Assembly (NCBI RefSeq): GCF_001593605.1
Contig: NZ_CP012836.1
Coordinates: forward strand, 372,001 to 436,000
DNA from: Algoriphagus sanaruensis
Lineage (GTDB): Bacteria > Bacteroidota > Bacteroidia > Cytophagales > Cyclobacteriaceae
Reading direction: 5' to 3'
Length of the DNA: 64,000 nt
A program made the translations under genes and the position numbers. The notes under the pieces were generated by a model. It worked only from the letters and a program-made list of their open reading frames with translations. It was not told the origin of the DNA and did no database searches. Shown piece after piece: positions 1,839-13,715 of the stretch; positions within the stretch are counted from its first letter, which is position 1, and the number at the start of each line of letters is the position of its first letter.

Positions 1839-4742
1839 ATGAACATCAAATTCCCTTTACGATTTCAAGACGCCTTGATCTTGGTCATTTCCTTCATATT
1901 GACCATAAACCTCGCTCATGCACAGTGTGTGCCAGGGGAAACCGTGACCCAAACAATCAATACTGTTGGTTCAGGTACTTTTACTATCCCTGCTGGCGTA
2001 ACTTCTATTCGAGTTCAAATATGGGGTGCCGGAGGAAGAGGAGGAAATCGATCAAATGATGGTACTGGTGGCGGAGGTGGAGGTGGTGCCTATTCAGAGA
2101 GTACTATTTCTGTAATTGGAGGTAACACCTATTATTATTCAGTGGGTCAAGGAAGTACTAGTACAAATCCGGGTGGTGATTCTTGGTTCTCATCTAGTGC
2201 TAACGTAAATAATGCAGTAGTTCTCGCAAAAGGAGGCCAATCTGTAGGAAATAATGATAGTGATGGTGCAGACGGAGGCGATCGAAGAGATGGAATAGGA
2301 GATATAAGATATTCAGGTGGTGACGGTGGTGATGGCGAAGGTGGAGATGGCGGTGGCGGAGGATCATCAGCAAGTTCTACAAATGACGGACAGGATGGAA
2401 GAGATGGAGATAATGGTTCAACTGGAGGAAATGGAGGATCTGACTCTGGAAGCGGTGGAAATGGCCAAGAATCACGTGACGGAAACGGAGCCGATGGAGC
2501 TAACCCAGGCGGAGGAGGCGGAGGTGCTACCAGAGACCAACAAAGTGGGACATTAACAGGTGGTAAAGGAGGAGACGGACAAATTATTATCTCTTACGTG
2601 TGCCCATCCTGCGGACCCGTCATAAATTATTCAGCAAATGTTCAACAGTTTAAAGTACCTGCAGGCGTAACCTACATTATAGTAGAAGCTTGGGGAGGAG
2701 GCGGAAAAGGTGCTGGGAGAGATAATGATAGAGGTGGAGGTGCTGGAGGGGGTGCTGGAGCCTATTCAAGAAGCACGCTTACAGTTACCCCTGGAGAAAC
2801 ATTATATTTTTCTACGGGAACAGGTTCAACCGGATATGGTACTCCAGGAGGAGACTCTTGGATTTCTAGAAATAATGACGGTTCCAATGCCTTGGTCCGT
2901 GCGAAGGGAGGAAATTCTGTAAGTGGGAACAATGCAACTACAGGAGCTACAGGCGGTCTTGCATCTCAAAGTATTGGGGACACCAAAATTAATGGTGGCA
3001 ACGGTGATAATGGGGGTAACTCCAATGGAACCGACGGTGGCGATGGCGGTGATTCTCCTAACGGAGGTCAAGGAGGTCAAGGAGGAGACAACGGAAACGA
3101 ATCTGGTGCTGATGGTGCCAGTCCTGGCGGTGGCGGCGGCGGCGGAAAAACTGAAAGTAACAGCCAAACTAGAAATGGTGGTAATGGCGGAAACGGATTA
3201 ATAAAAATTTCATACGATTGTTCCGTAACCAATCCTTCAGGATGTTGGAGATATATTGATGATGGATCCGTTTCAGGGGTTGTTATCATGGAGTTCTTTA
3301 ATGATTGCAATTGGGAAGCACCTGAAAACCTTCTAGAATTTGAAGTTCTAGTTGTGGGTGGAGGCGGAGGCGGAGGTCTACGCTCCGGAGGCGGCGGTGG
3401 CGGAGGTGGTTTAGTACATGCAAGAGCCGATGTTTCAGAAATCACAGCCACTGGATTACCTGCAAATTCCATTTTTCAAATTAAAGTCGGTAGTGGTGGA
3501 GCGGGCTCTTCAGATAGAACTCAAAAAGGAGGAAATGGAGTAGAATCCTCATTTGATTTAGGTGGAACCTACGAGATTATTGCTGGCGGCGGCGGCGGAG
3601 GAGGATCGGATGATGACAGATCTGGAAGAGCAAATAGAAGTGGAGCGAATGGATCAAACTCATCTATTAAAAATAATATTACAGGATTTGGAGTAGTAAG
3701 TTCAAGATTTTTTGGCGGTTCTGGTGGTGGTGCAGCTCATGGTAGTGAAAACCCAGGCAATGGTAATGGTAATGGAAAAAACGGTGGAGAAGCCGATGAT
3801 CATGCCGGCGGAGGTGGTGGCGGAGCAGGATCTAATGGAAGAAAAGCAAGAGACCAAGACAAGGGTGGAGATGGTGGAGCTGGCCTAATTTTCCCTGATG
3901 AGTTCGGTGAAAGAATTTATGCAGCAGGAGGCGGAGGCGGAAGCAGGGATGATGATGAAGAAGATAGAGGATTTGGTGGAACGAATTTAAGAGGAGGAAA
4001 TGGAGGATTTGATAATGAAGGCCCATCGGTGTCAGGTGAAGATGGTCAAAGTCCCGGTTCAGGAGGTGGGGGAAGTGGCCACGACGATGATAATGTTTCA
4101 GGTGGAAAAGGAGCTAAAGGCGTAGTAATCATTCGCTATGAAATCGCGAAAATACTTCCTGTTGAAATCAATTCTTTTACTGTAAAACTTGATGCACAAA
4201 ACAGAGAGTCTGTTTTAACCTGGACAACAGTGAAGGAGTGGGATAATTCTCATTTTGAAATTGAAAGATCTGTAAATGATGTAAAAAGCTGGGAGACAAT
4301 TGGCACAATCAATGGAGCCGGATACTCAGATCAATTAAGAACCTATGCATATTCTGACAATAAGCTGCCAGCTGTAGGAGGAAATGTATTTTATCGCCTC
4401 AAACAAGTTGATTTTAATGGAAACAGCAAGTATAGCGACACAAAATCAATCAGAATTGAAGCAGTAAGTGGAAAAGGTAGCTGGGTAGCATATCCTAATC
4501 CAAGTTTCAAAGGTCAATATGTTCATATCGACTTGTTGAATTCAACCACTCACAATGAGGAGCCAATTTATATTCAACTTTCAAATAGTTCAGGGACCTC
4601 TATTACATCTATTGAAGTAGACAAACCATCTGAAGTTGAAAAGACCATAAATACCTTCATTGAACAGCAGAATACTGGAATTTTTGTAGTTAAACTTAAT
4701 TGGGGAGATTTTTCAGAAATTCTAAAAATTCAGGTAAAATAA
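1839..4742 (+). CDS. Glycine-rich T9SS-secreted surface protein
   Basis: A 967-residue protein with a clear signal peptide (hydrophobic LILVISFILTINLAHA, cleavage near AHA-QC). It has three glycine-rich modules, roughly residues 40-255, 260-460 and 465-775. Each opens with a strand such as IPAGVTSIRVQIWGAGG and continues in long GGGGG, GGNGG and GGDGG runs; the first two are clear homologues (PAGVT, GGDSW, AKGG in the same order). The module ILPVEINSF...SHFEIERSVND and a type-A T9SS sorting domain (VAYPNPS) close the protein, as in its neighbours. Likely an abundant, flexible cell-surface or extracellular-matrix protein; this role is inferred. A strong terminator follows, so this gene ends a transcription unit. 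Confidence 0.85.
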   Translation: MNIKFPLRFQDALILVISFILTINLAHAQCVPGETVTQTINTVGSGTFTIPAGVTSIRVQIWGAGGRGGNRSNDGTGGGGGGGAYSESTISVIGGNTYYYSVGQGSTSTNPGGDSWFSSSANVNNAVVLAKGGQSVGNNDSDGADGGDRRDGIGDIRYSGGDGGDGEGGDGGGGGSSASSTNDGQDGRDGDNGSTGGNGGSDSGSGGNGQESRDGNGADGANPGGGGGGATRDQQSGTLTGGKGGDGQIIISYVCPSCGPVINYSANVQQFKVPAGVTYIIVEAWGGGGKGAGRDNDRGGGAGGGAGAYSRSTLTVTPGETLYFSTGTGSTGYGTPGGDSWISRNNDGSNALVRAKGGNSVSGNNATTGATGGLASQSIGDTKINGGNGDNGGNSNGTDGGDGGDSPNGGQGGQGGDNGNESGADGASPGGGGGGGKTESNSQTRNGGNGGNGLIKISYDCSVTNPSGCWRYIDDGSVSGVVIMEFFNDCNWEAPENLLEFEVLVVGGGGGGGLRSGGGGGGGGLVHARADVSEITATGLPANSIFQIKVGSGGAGSSDRTQKGGNGVESSFDLGGTYEIIAGGGGGGGSDDDRSGRANRSGANGSNSSIKNNITGFGVVSSRFFGGSGGGAAHGSENPGNGNGNGKNGGEADDHAGGGGGGAGSNGRKARDQDKGGDGGAGLIFPDEFGERIYAAGGGGGSRDDDEEDRGFGGTNLRGGNGGFDNEGPSVSGEDGQSPGSGGGGSGHDDDNVSGGKGAKGVVIIRYEIAKILPVEINSFTVKLDAQNRESVLTWTTVKEWDNSHFEIERSVNDVKSWETIGTINGAGYSDQLRTYAYSDNKLPAVGGNVFYRLKQVDFNGNSKYSDTKSIRIEAVSGKGSWVAYPNPSFKGQYVHIDLLNSTTHNEEPIYIQLSNSSGTSITSIEVDKPSEVEKTINTFIEQQNTGIFVVKLNWGDFSEILKIQVK

Positions 4743-12943: not shown

Positions 12944-12972
12944 AAAAAAGCAACGGGATTCCGTTGCTTTTT
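12944..12972 (-). terminator. Terminator of tRNA-like RNA copy 1
   Basis: A perfect 12-bp stem (12945-12956 with 12961-12972, loop of four) ends on the minus strand in a run of six T. It begins six bases after the 3' end of the tRNA-like RNA, so it most likely ends that transcript. Confidence 0.85.
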
Positions 12973-12978
12973 ATCGTG

Positions 12979-13102
12979 CTGTAGGAGAAGGATTCGAACC
13001 TCCACGGGGCAGTTAGGCAATAGTCCGGTTTGAATTACGCTTTGTGCTGGGCTCCCCACCCCCGAGACAGGAGGGCTTGTCTGCCAATTTCAACATCCTA
13101 CA
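12979..13102 (-). ncRNA. tRNA-like RNA, copy 1 (Asp-type anticodon loop, 55-nt insert)
   Basis: Read on the minus strand this 124-nt segment folds as a tRNA. It has a 7-bp acceptor stem (TGTAGGA/TCCTACA), T8, a 3-bp D stem with A14 and G18-G19, a 5-bp anticodon stem (CCCTC/GGGGG) around loop CTGTCTC, and a T arm with the canonical loop TTCGAAT. The anticodon is GTC (plus-strand 13066-13068) and the discriminator base is G, both as in tRNA-Asp. Instead of a 4-5-nt (class I) or ~15-nt (class II) variable region there are 55 nt, starting with a GGGG/CCCC stem. Position 37 is T, where decoding tRNAs normally have a purine, and no CCA is encoded. A second copy lies 422 bases upstream. Ordinary tRNA-Asp is ruled out by the insert; tRNA-Leu/Ser by the anticodon. 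Confidence 0.7.
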
Positions 13103-13123
13103 ATTTGGTGTGTTTTTGGGCTA

Positions 13124-13235
13124 GGAAATAGCTTGCTCGTATGCAAGCTTTCCCAACTCCCTGATAATCAAAAAGCTCTTTCGAGCTTTTCGTAATCGAT
13201 TGAATAGGTTTGAGATATTTGATAAGCCAAAGTTA
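13124..13235 (-). promoter_or_regulatory. Promoter and two leader hairpins of tRNA-like copy 1
   Basis: On the minus strand TAACTTTG (plus 13228-13235) matches the -7 consensus; no good -33 element is visible. Downstream are two strong hairpins. The first (13171-13190) has an 8-bp stem, a GAAA tetraloop and a trailing T run, so it resembles a terminator. The second (13124-13153) has AGCTTGC/GCAAGCT arms extended by GGAA/TTCC. If transcription starts near 13222, both would be in the leader of copy 1. The start site is inferred. Confidence 0.4.
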
Positions 13236-13460
13236 GAAAACACATTCATTTATTAAAATATTTGCAACATTTATTTTATTTTTTTATTGATTTTTTAATT
13301 TTTAAGGATTTTTATTGCCTATTTGAAAATATTGTTCTCATTTTATCGGAATAGATTAGAAAAATGATAATCGCCTTCGATTCTCGAAATACTCATTCTT
13401 AAATTTGGCAAATCCTCCTCAATGACAAATTTTATACTAATTCAAAAAAGTATAGGCAAT

Positions 13461-13492
13461 AAAAAAACCACGGAATAAGATTCCATGGTTTT
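13461..13492 (-). terminator. Terminator of tRNA-like RNA copy 2
   Basis: A 12-bp stem (13464-13475 with 13481-13492) is followed on the minus strand by seven T. Its one non-Watson-Crick position is a G-U pair in minus-strand RNA but a C-A mismatch in plus-strand RNA, which supports minus-strand transcription. Confidence 0.8.
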
Positions 13493-13523
13493 AGTCAATT
13501 AACAATAAACCCAAAATAACCTG

Positions 13524-13648
13524 CTGTAGGAGAAGGATTCGAACCTCCACGGAGTAGTTAGGCAAAATTACGAGCTCGCTAATTGCTTTATCCTAGACTC
13601 TCCACCCCCGAGACAGGAGGGCTTGTCTGCCAGTTTCAACATCCTACA
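13524..13648 (-). ncRNA. tRNA-like RNA, copy 2 (Asp-type anticodon loop, 55-nt class insert)
   Basis: A 125-nt paralogue of the RNA at 12979-13102, same strand. The acceptor stem, D arm, anticodon arm (loop CTGTCTC, anticodon GTC at plus 13612-13614) and T arm are identical apart from one D-loop base. The insert differs strongly in its interior but keeps its ends. The basal stem is GGAG/CTCC here and GGGG/CCCC in copy 1, a compensatory change. The insert holds a longer hairpin than copy 1, including AATTA/TAATT and CGAG/CTCG arms around 13570-13590. A good promoter precedes it and a terminator follows 32 bases after the 3' end, so it appears to be an independent gene and not debris. Confidence 0.72.
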
Positions 13649-13682: not shown

Positions 13683-13715
13683 CAAAGATAGGCCAATTCC
13701 TTATTGTTTTGCAAA
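13683..13715 (-). promoter_or_regulatory. Promoter of tRNA-like RNA copy 2
   Basis: On the minus strand TTTG (plus 13712-13715), a 21-base spacer and TATCTTTG (plus 13683-13690) match the Bacteroidota housekeeping promoter. The RNA 5' end is 34 bases after the -7 box, so a short processed leader is expected. The region from here to 13918 is AT-rich, with no gene that I can see. Confidence 0.6.

Follow-up and report, generated by a model that had tools for sequence, protein, structure and literature searches.

Background

Several described systems bear comparison with the RNA genes reported here. The tRNA shape can be kept for a use outside decoding, as in the non-translational tRNA-Gly of Staphylococcus, which serves peptidoglycan, carries another identity and has no long variable arm. 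Stemmed variable arms are found in the class II tRNAs for leucine, serine and selenocysteine, of which tRNA-Leu has A73. In E. coli the genes asnC and asnA are divergently arranged. The AsnC regulator beside this asparagine-making gene activates asnA unless asparagine is present, according to the portion of PMC4482635 available to us.

Asparagine can also be made on a tRNA. In Bdellovibrio, Deinococcus and Thermus, as described in the accessible part of PMC4206432, a non-discriminating AspRS and GatCAB act together on tRNA-Asn, and GatCAB is present beside both AsnRS and GlnRS. The bases that govern such reactions have been defined, and we rely for them on the available portion of PMC9976931. 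The bacterial aspartate determinants it gives are G73, G34, U35, C36 and C38, with G2-C71 as a minor element, and in bacterial tRNA-Asp it describes G1-C72 as crucial and strictly conserved. For Asp-tRNA-Asn to be amidated U1-A72 is required, as PMC4206432 also states for GatCAB; in tRNA-Asp the reaction is blocked by G1-C72 together with U20a. The same source lists U1-A72, G2-C71, G73 and U35 among the determinants of tRNA-Gln for GlnRS, and G1-C72 and U2-A71 among those of bacterial glutamate tRNAs.

Here we describe two genes from a 64,000-nucleotide stretch of the Algoriphagus sanaruensis genome (the window) that belong to a conserved, previously undescribed family of tRNA-like RNAs. Their conserved bases resemble those of tRNA-Asp in the anticodon arm and those of a GatCAB substrate at the end of the acceptor stem.

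Results and discussion

Two tRNA-like genes with a long variable arm

Both genes lie on the minus strand, copy A at 12979..13102 (124 nt) and copy B at 13524..13648 (125 nt), and lie near rluD and a gene for a DUF748-like protein. Each has a 7-bp acceptor stem (UGUAGGA/UCCUACA) followed by G73, U8, a 3-bp D stem with G18-G19, a 5-bp anticodon stem (CCCUC/GGGGG) and the T loop UUCGAAU. The full tRNA core that had been predicted for both segments is thus present, and comparison with relatives supports its structure. Read from the sequence and its conservation, the anticodon-position loop is CUGUCUC in both (G34, U35, C36 and C38; 13064..13070 in copy A, 13610..13616 in copy B, minus strand). The place of the variable arm is taken by 55 nt in copy A (13004..13058, minus) and 56 nt in copy B (13549..13604, minus), in keeping with the earlier estimate of about 55. 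In copy A this arm consists of stem V1 (GGGG/CCCC), V1b (CAG/CUG), an internal loop CACAAA/CUAA and V2, and in copy B of V1 (GGAG/CUCC), V1b (UAG/CUA), an internal loop GAUAAA/CUAA and a V2 that includes a GAGCUC palindrome. These arms were read from the sequence, with V1 counted in the 40-sequence covariation test below and the architecture taken from relatives. A DNA search of the host genome found exactly these two copies, and the genome also has ordinary tRNAs, among them two tRNA-Asp(GTC) genes.

A terminator search found an intrinsic terminator for each copy, as the original prediction had stated, at 12945..12972 for copy A and 13464..13492 for copy B (both minus). Of the good promoter it had assigned to copy B, a candidate of Bacteroidota type stands, TTTG-N21-TATCTTTG, with the -7 element TATCTTTG of the TAnnTTTG type at 13683..13690 and the candidate -33 element TTTG 21 nt upstream of it at 13712..13715 (both minus); the sigma-70 scan found no promoter positioned for either copy. 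The assignment follows what we take to be the Bacteroidota promoter consensus (TTTG/TAnnTTTG). No TAnnTTTG was found within 100 nt upstream of copy A. Among relatives the element occurs within this distance in 94 of 162 unique upstream sequences of the named-genome set (shuffled mean 10.8, maximum 19) and in 67 of 114 of a second genome set (shuffled mean 6.9, maximum 15), and upstream of none of eight viral copies. Terminator-like hairpins follow 148 of 165 copies in the named set (58-82 in five shuffles), 91 of 114 in the second set (25-37) and one of eight viral copies (0-1). The base after G73 is C in all 183 unique downstream flanks and likewise in the host tRNAs inspected, which is consistent with tRNA-like maturation.

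Between copy B and its terminator lies a conserved 21-nt 3' trailer, TTATTTTGGGTTTATTGTTAA (13499..13519, minus), which is found unchanged downstream of 53 of 164 copies in the named set. A boxA-like GTTCTT leader was seen in 19 of 113 second-set upstream regions (shuffled mean 1.2) and in only 4 of 163 named ones (mean 1.6, maximum 7), and because of this weak enrichment in the named set it is not claimed. Likewise, an anti-Shine-Dalgarno role of the CCUCCU in the anticodon arm was considered and dropped, as other lineages have CCGCC, CCGUC, CCCGC or CCCUCU there.

Comparative support for the secondary structure

Folding of the single sequences is no better than that of shuffled ones (z-scores 0.93 and -0.72), and the structure therefore rests on comparison. 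In a test on 40 sequences 99.1% of 1000 cells are paired, 14 of 25 pairs have changed on both sides, and the 83 cells with two-sided changes, against a shuffled mean of 23.8, were reached in none of 500 shuffles. Most of these sequences came from a script that accepted only copies with paired acceptor, anticodon and T stems, so the unselected helices weigh most, namely the D stem (100% paired) and the first stem of the variable arm (98.8%), both of which show two-sided changes. On 49 sequences, 22 mostly from the stem-pairing script and 27 that are matches of a model with that structure, 98.3% of 1223 core cells pair and 15 of 25 pairs change on both sides, with 151 two-sided cells against a shuffled mean of 34.3 (0 of 500 shuffles reach this); sliding the partner strand lowers pairing to 54-62%.

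The test of the variable arm is freer of such selection, as its 36 members were chosen solely by a GRGUNGACCAC element, with helices read from the same alignment. Here 97.5% of 631 cells are paired (37-52% on sliding), 13 of 18 pairs have changed on both sides (a number reached in 4 of 500 shuffles), and 137 cells show two-sided changes against 40.1 in shuffles (0 of 500). The arm of these relatives comprises V1, V1b of 3 bp, the internal loop GANAAA/CUAA, V2 of 8 bp and a hairpin in which the loop is UNGA and an A is bulged. Both window copies conform to V1 and V1b, using different base pairs (V1b being CAG/CUG in one and UAG/CUA in the other), and the UNGA hairpin is absent from both. Some copies of the family have hairpins within the D loop.

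A widespread RNA family

ARAGORN called no tRNA within the window, and neither copy has an Rfam match at the gathering score, in keeping with the original prediction, which had recognised no described family of this shape. At a loose threshold the Rfam tRNA model (RF00005) gives a partial match of 19.7 bits to copy B only, against a cut-off of 29. A known RNA family was rejected for want of an Rfam match at the gathering score, and a self-splicing intron or tmRNA was rejected as there is no such Rfam match in the window and the cloverleaf is intact. A literature search, with most subscription papers beyond its reach, recognised no published description of the RNA.

A DNA search with copy B gave matches in 30 of 38 genomes, its own included, and none in GenBank phages and plasmids. 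The 27-base core of the D and anticodon arms was found in at least 119 stretches of named genomes; among the 80 matches listed, titles that name a group give what we take to be Cytophagales throughout, and a few say only Bacteroidetes or Bacteroidia. A first covariance model (R1, from 40 sequences), searched over 395 genomes of the phylum, gave clear matches above about 80 bits in several families, along with many of 50-60 bits and about 83 nt that we take for tRNA-Leu; its tally of 366 of 395 genomes includes these cross-matches and so does not count the RNA family. A second model (R2, from 49 sequences, threshold E <= 1e-16) recovers the RNA from 44 of 247 genomes of the class, spread over 18 families. 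Nothing above the R1 cross-match level was found by the phylum search in two families, f18 and f19, which are presumably Flavobacteriales.

The covariance-model search proposed with the original prediction has thus recovered homologues, and their spread, together with the covarying stems and the over-represented TAnnTTTG element upstream, bears out the view that these genes form a maintained RNA family and are not pseudogenes. Two relatives elsewhere do look decayed, one diverged in its anticodon-position and T loops (L288) and one with a truncated anticodon arm (L293), and are likely decaying copies. Diverged members may escape the models. An example is a 76-nt relative lacking the insert (L245 in genome G035, 4339-4414), with the loop CUAUCUC, no long variable arm and 69 bits with R1, which is either a reduced form of the RNA or a related tRNA.

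A search with 18 bases of the anticodon arm recovered 21 stretches from IMG/VR, most of them with tRNA arrays, and R2 matches all 21, two of which are clipped by the contig end. The viral nature of these contigs rests on the collection label and the tRNA arrays: a PHROGs scan of ten of their proteins matched three, none of them structural. The variable arms of these copies (L032-L052) have palindromes of differing sequence (GCCGGCCGGC, TCCTGCAGGA, GCTTGCAAGC and TGCATGCA), and some copies have hairpins inserted in the D loop, which makes loop-loop pairing possible.

Other features of the same contigs deserve mention. Proteins encoded at L043 2965-3867 and L045 748-2211 match QueC-like queuosine synthesis and nicotinamide phosphoribosyltransferase families, and a GOLLD RNA (326.6 bits) lies at L041 6063-6472 on the same contig piece as a tRNA array with the RNA. 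The arrays at L036 5130-8251 (minus), L037 4332-5973 and L044 5065-5412 hold several tRNA-like shells, in seven, three and two places respectively, with a near-identical acceptor (AGTCAGG/CCTGACTA), a Leu-like D arm and a T arm, in which unrelated inserts replace the anticodon arm. These shells do not belong to the RNA family of the window, and we know of no description of them.

Conserved bases suggest aspartate charging and amidation

The 49 aligned sequences comprise 27 found by the model and not by a loop pattern, and 22 picked with a pattern that fixes the loop. In the former U1-A72, G2-C71, G73, U35, C36 and C38 are each present in 27 of 27 rows, G34 in 24 and U33 in only 20; over all 49 the same six are invariant, with G34 in 46 and U33 in 42. 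Among 227 copies picked regardless of their ends, 225 have U1-A72 and 226 have G73. A further 21 matches of R2, which lean towards the model and one of which (L282) was placed by eye, all have U1-A72, G2-C71 and G73; G34, U35, C36 and C38 are found in 19 of them (the two decayed copies being the others), and U33 in 13 of those 19. The loops seen are CUGUCUC, UUGUCUC, CAGUCUC, CGGUCUC, UCGUCUC, CUUUCUC and CUCUCUC. The second base after G19 is A in all 49 sequences, and the family therefore has no U20a.

The RNA thus shares G73, G34, U35, C36, C38 and G2-C71 with bacterial tRNA-Asp, and differs from it in having U1-A72 in place of G1-C72, in the missing U20a, in the Leu-like 3-bp D arm and the variable arm (55-56 nt in the window copies), and in positions 33 and 37. 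Both host tRNA-Asp genes have G1-C72 and U20a, and the host tRNA-Asn has U1-A72 but also U20a. The tRNA-Asn anticodon GUU is not found in the family, C36 being present in all 27 model-found rows. To judge from these bases, the RNA would combine the determinant set of AspRS with the amidation set of GatCAB. The D arm and loop and the stemmed variable arm recall class II tRNAs, and ARAGORN-called tRNA-Leu genes cross-match R2 at 35-51 bits; the RNA differs from that class in a far longer variable arm with an internal loop and, in many members, the UNGA hairpin, and from tRNA-Leu in G73.

It is very unlikely that the family is a special decoding tRNA for the aspartate codons GAC and GAU with an oversized variable arm, although G34-U35-C36 is found in 46 of 49 sequences and the IMG/VR copies lie in or beside tRNA arrays. 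U33 is not conserved as in a decoding tRNA, being replaced in 7 of 49 sequences and in 6 of the 19 later loops, none of the 49 has A at position 37, and ordinary tRNA-Asp is present in the host and in several of the IMG/VR arrays. A glutamine route, by which GatCAB would amidate glutamate carried by the RNA or GlnRS would attach glutamine directly, appears just as improbable. In its favor, U1-A72 serves tRNA-Gln as well, U1-A72, G2-C71, G73 and U35 are GlnRS determinants in the available account of PMC9976931, and the U34 or C34 variants (3 of 49) give glutamate anticodons; yet the glutamate set in that account has G1-C72 and U2-A71, where all 49 sequences have U1-A72 and G2-C71, C36 and C38 are unfit for glutamine, 17 of 39 RNA-bearing genomes have no GlnRS over the cut-off, and the regulator found next to the RNA (see below) is AsnC-like.

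Co-occurrence with GatB and scarcity of asparagine synthetases

We compared 80 genomes, 39 of the 44 shown by R2 to bear the RNA and 41 without it, absence being judged by R2 for 19 and by R1 for 22 (best E 3.6e-12 or weaker, or none), and the presence of GatCAB was judged from GatB. GatB is found in 39 of 39 RNA-bearing genomes versus 13 of 41 others. AsnRS is present in all 80, and GlnRS is over the cut-off in 22 of 39 and 29 of 41, respectively. In the 29 genomes where GlnRS is not, GatB is always present, as translation requires (17 of 17 with the RNA, 12 of 12 without). The contrast lies in the 51 genomes with both GlnRS and AsnRS, where GatB accompanies the RNA in 22 of 22 and is found in only 1 of the 29 without it (Fisher p 1.5e-13, with kinship ignored). 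The exception, G440, has a 362.9-bit GatB match in an open frame of 1120 residues.

AsnA is over the cut-off in 1 of 39 RNA-bearing genomes (G202) and 4 of 41 others. E. coli-type AsnB, searched with a query that scores 958.5 bits on the AsnB model NF006949 (cut-off 499), is found in none of the 39, in 22 of the 28 genomes that have neither the RNA nor GatB, and in none of the 13 with GatB and no RNA; the matches have 69-100% identity to the query, apart from one of 40% in G090. One or the other enzyme is thus present in 1 of 39 RNA-bearing genomes versus 24 of those 28. The broader AsnB family (TIGR01536) matches in 76 of the 80 genomes, 75 over the cut-off, and in 37 of the 39 with the RNA (36 over the cut-off, G033 being weak, and none in G430 and G566). 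The best of the three such proteins of G000 and the sole representatives in G116 and G249 are encoded beside glycosyltransferase genes, two of the three also beside NusG-like and ABC-export genes. They score 240-280 bits on NF006949, below its cut-off; for the proteins scanned from G086 and G202 the scores are 307 and 312 bits. The proteins beside glycosyltransferases could still be capable of making asparagine, and the AsnB-family proteins of 600-670 residues may provide another route to it.

On an AsnRS tree of 50 of the 51 genomes with both synthetases (G436 was left out for its long branch), the RNA changes 5 times, GatB 4 times and AsnA/AsnB 3 times. There are 3 independent pairs on supported branches, in which GatB differs the same way as the RNA in 2.6 and the opposite way in 0, and AsnA/AsnB the opposite way in 1.0 with no difference in 2.0; an earlier quick tree had 1 supported pair. 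As three pairs are too few, no significance is drawn from the tree. The few independent events, along with the occurrence in IMG/VR tRNA arrays, are what speaks for the notion that the link with GatB reflects shared ancestry only and that the RNA does something unrelated, for instance as a decoy for enzymes that cut tRNA-Asp. We regard this as quite unlikely: a decoy leaves U1-A72 and the missing U20a unexplained, and the RNA and GatB are absent or present together in family f17, where G151 has neither and the three other genomes tested have both, and in genus g196, where G591 has both and G443 neither, with the qualification that G591 is also without GlnRS and so needs GatB anyway.

An AsnC-like gene beside the RNA

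In all 76 loci where it was found (30 in the named set, 46 in the second), a gene for an AsnC-like regulator is divergent from the RNA, at a distance of 109-494 nt (median 152.5). It is absent from the examined DNA of 88 named and 43 second-set loci and of 12 of 12 IMG/VR loci counted, sets that overlap in part. The named loci without it include many from Algoriphagus and its kin, with the RNA near rluD and the DUF748-like gene. Two example regulators have the Pfam HTH_AsnC-type and AsnC_trans_reg domains, and their best NCBIfam model is AsnC (173.3 and 180.0 bits, with LrpA next at 88 and 72). Since these scores fall below the cut-off of that model (NF008384, 227 bits), we call the regulator AsnC-like and not AsnC. 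In G090, which has no RNA, the AsnC-like gene is divergent from the asnB of 40% identity, and in G382 it adjoins asnS. A pattern scan found no such RNA alongside the AsnC-like genes (about 39-47% identity) of the f18 and f19 genomes tested. A link to the Suf operon was rejected, having been seen in only part of the named loci.

A proposed role in asparagine synthesis

By a narrow balance of probability we favor the reading that the products of both genes are non-decoding tRNAs dedicated to asparagine synthesis, with aspartate converted to asparagine on the RNA. It is the most economical one and would explain four observations: the conserved bases, the retention of GatCAB where translation has no need of it, the rarity of AsnA and of AsnB of the E. 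coli type, and the regulator. The original prediction had proposed no function; the connection with GatCAB and asparagine is introduced here. The RNA would have a promoter of its own and undergo maturation as tRNAs do. AspRS would charge it with aspartate, as G73, G34, U35, C36, C38 and the minor G2-C71 suggest, and GatCAB would amidate the aspartate to asparagine, as U1-A72 and the missing U20a, the opposite of ordinary tRNA-Asp, suggest. The asparagine would then be released and used by AsnRS, with the AsnC-like regulator, divergent in many lineages, presumably adjusting the supply. Exclusion from the ribosome, or the docking of a partner, may be the role of the long, structured variable arm and of the tolerated changes of U33.

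Asparagine synthesis on a dedicated RNA would resemble the route on tRNA-Asn in Bdellovibrio, Deinococcus and Thermus in its GatCAB retained alongside AsnRS and GlnRS, its U1-A72 substrate and its conversion of aspartate on an RNA, as far as the accessible part of PMC4206432 describes it. There the substrate is the decoding tRNA-Asn and the synthetase is non-discriminating, whereas here it would be a separate RNA with an aspartate-type loop and a long variable arm, and if AspRS recognizes this loop a non-discriminating AspRS is not needed. In comparison with the E. coli asnC-asnA pair, the RNA gene takes the place of asnA or asnB beside the regulator.

Several findings count against this reading. 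U1-A72 departs from the G1-C72 of tRNA-Asp, G34 is replaced in 3 of 49 sequences, and U1-A72, G2-C71, G73 and U35, unlike C36 and C38, are shared with the tRNA-Gln set. Nearly all RNA-bearing genomes have an AsnB-family match, and G202 has AsnA beside the RNA. The 12 GlnRS-less genomes and G440 have GatB and no RNA, and four genomes (G432, G443, G448 and G151) have none of the RNA, GatB, AsnA and E. coli-type AsnB. Finally, the AsnRS tree offers few independent evolutionary events.

The same determinants and the same association with GatB would also suit an RNA whose asparagine is donated in a non-ribosomal transfer to a lipid, peptidoglycan or a protein end and is not set free, and amino-acid-donor tRNAs outside translation do exist, the Staphylococcus tRNA-Gly being one. 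This is unlikely, as the recurrent neighbor is an AsnC-like regulator and not a transferase, and RNA-bearing genomes seldom have AsnA or E. coli-type AsnB. The constant divergent placement of that regulator wherever it is found and the elaborate, conserved variable arm would fit a regulatory RNA that signals nitrogen or asparagine status by being charged with aspartate, charged with asparagine or uncharged, and that acts through the AsnC-like protein, AspRS or GatCAB. We think this rather unlikely, given the many loci, among them all 12 counted from IMG/VR, that have no AsnC-like gene in the examined DNA.

Conclusions

The favored conversion of aspartate to asparagine on the RNA can be extended, tentatively and with somewhat less than even confidence, to the family as a whole. 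It would then be a tRNA family at the scale of a phylum that never decodes, an RNA cofactor that AspRS loads, on which GatCAB converts the aspartate to asparagine and that yields the asparagine in free form. It would substitute for asparagine synthetase, its gene occupying the position of asnA or asnB next to the AsnC-like regulator, and its purpose in viruses with tRNA arrays would be to maintain the asparagine supply upon failure of the host RNAs. The finding contributes an RNA family whose variable arm has a new architecture, and raises the question of why contigs classed as viral carry the RNA in tRNA arrays. If the proposed role is correct, this tRNA serves metabolism, and its composite identity (aspartate loaded, amide produced) can be read from its sequence. 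It would also explain why GatCAB is kept in part of Bacteroidota despite AsnRS and GlnRS, and how asparagine is made in the absence of AsnA or E. coli-type AsnB.
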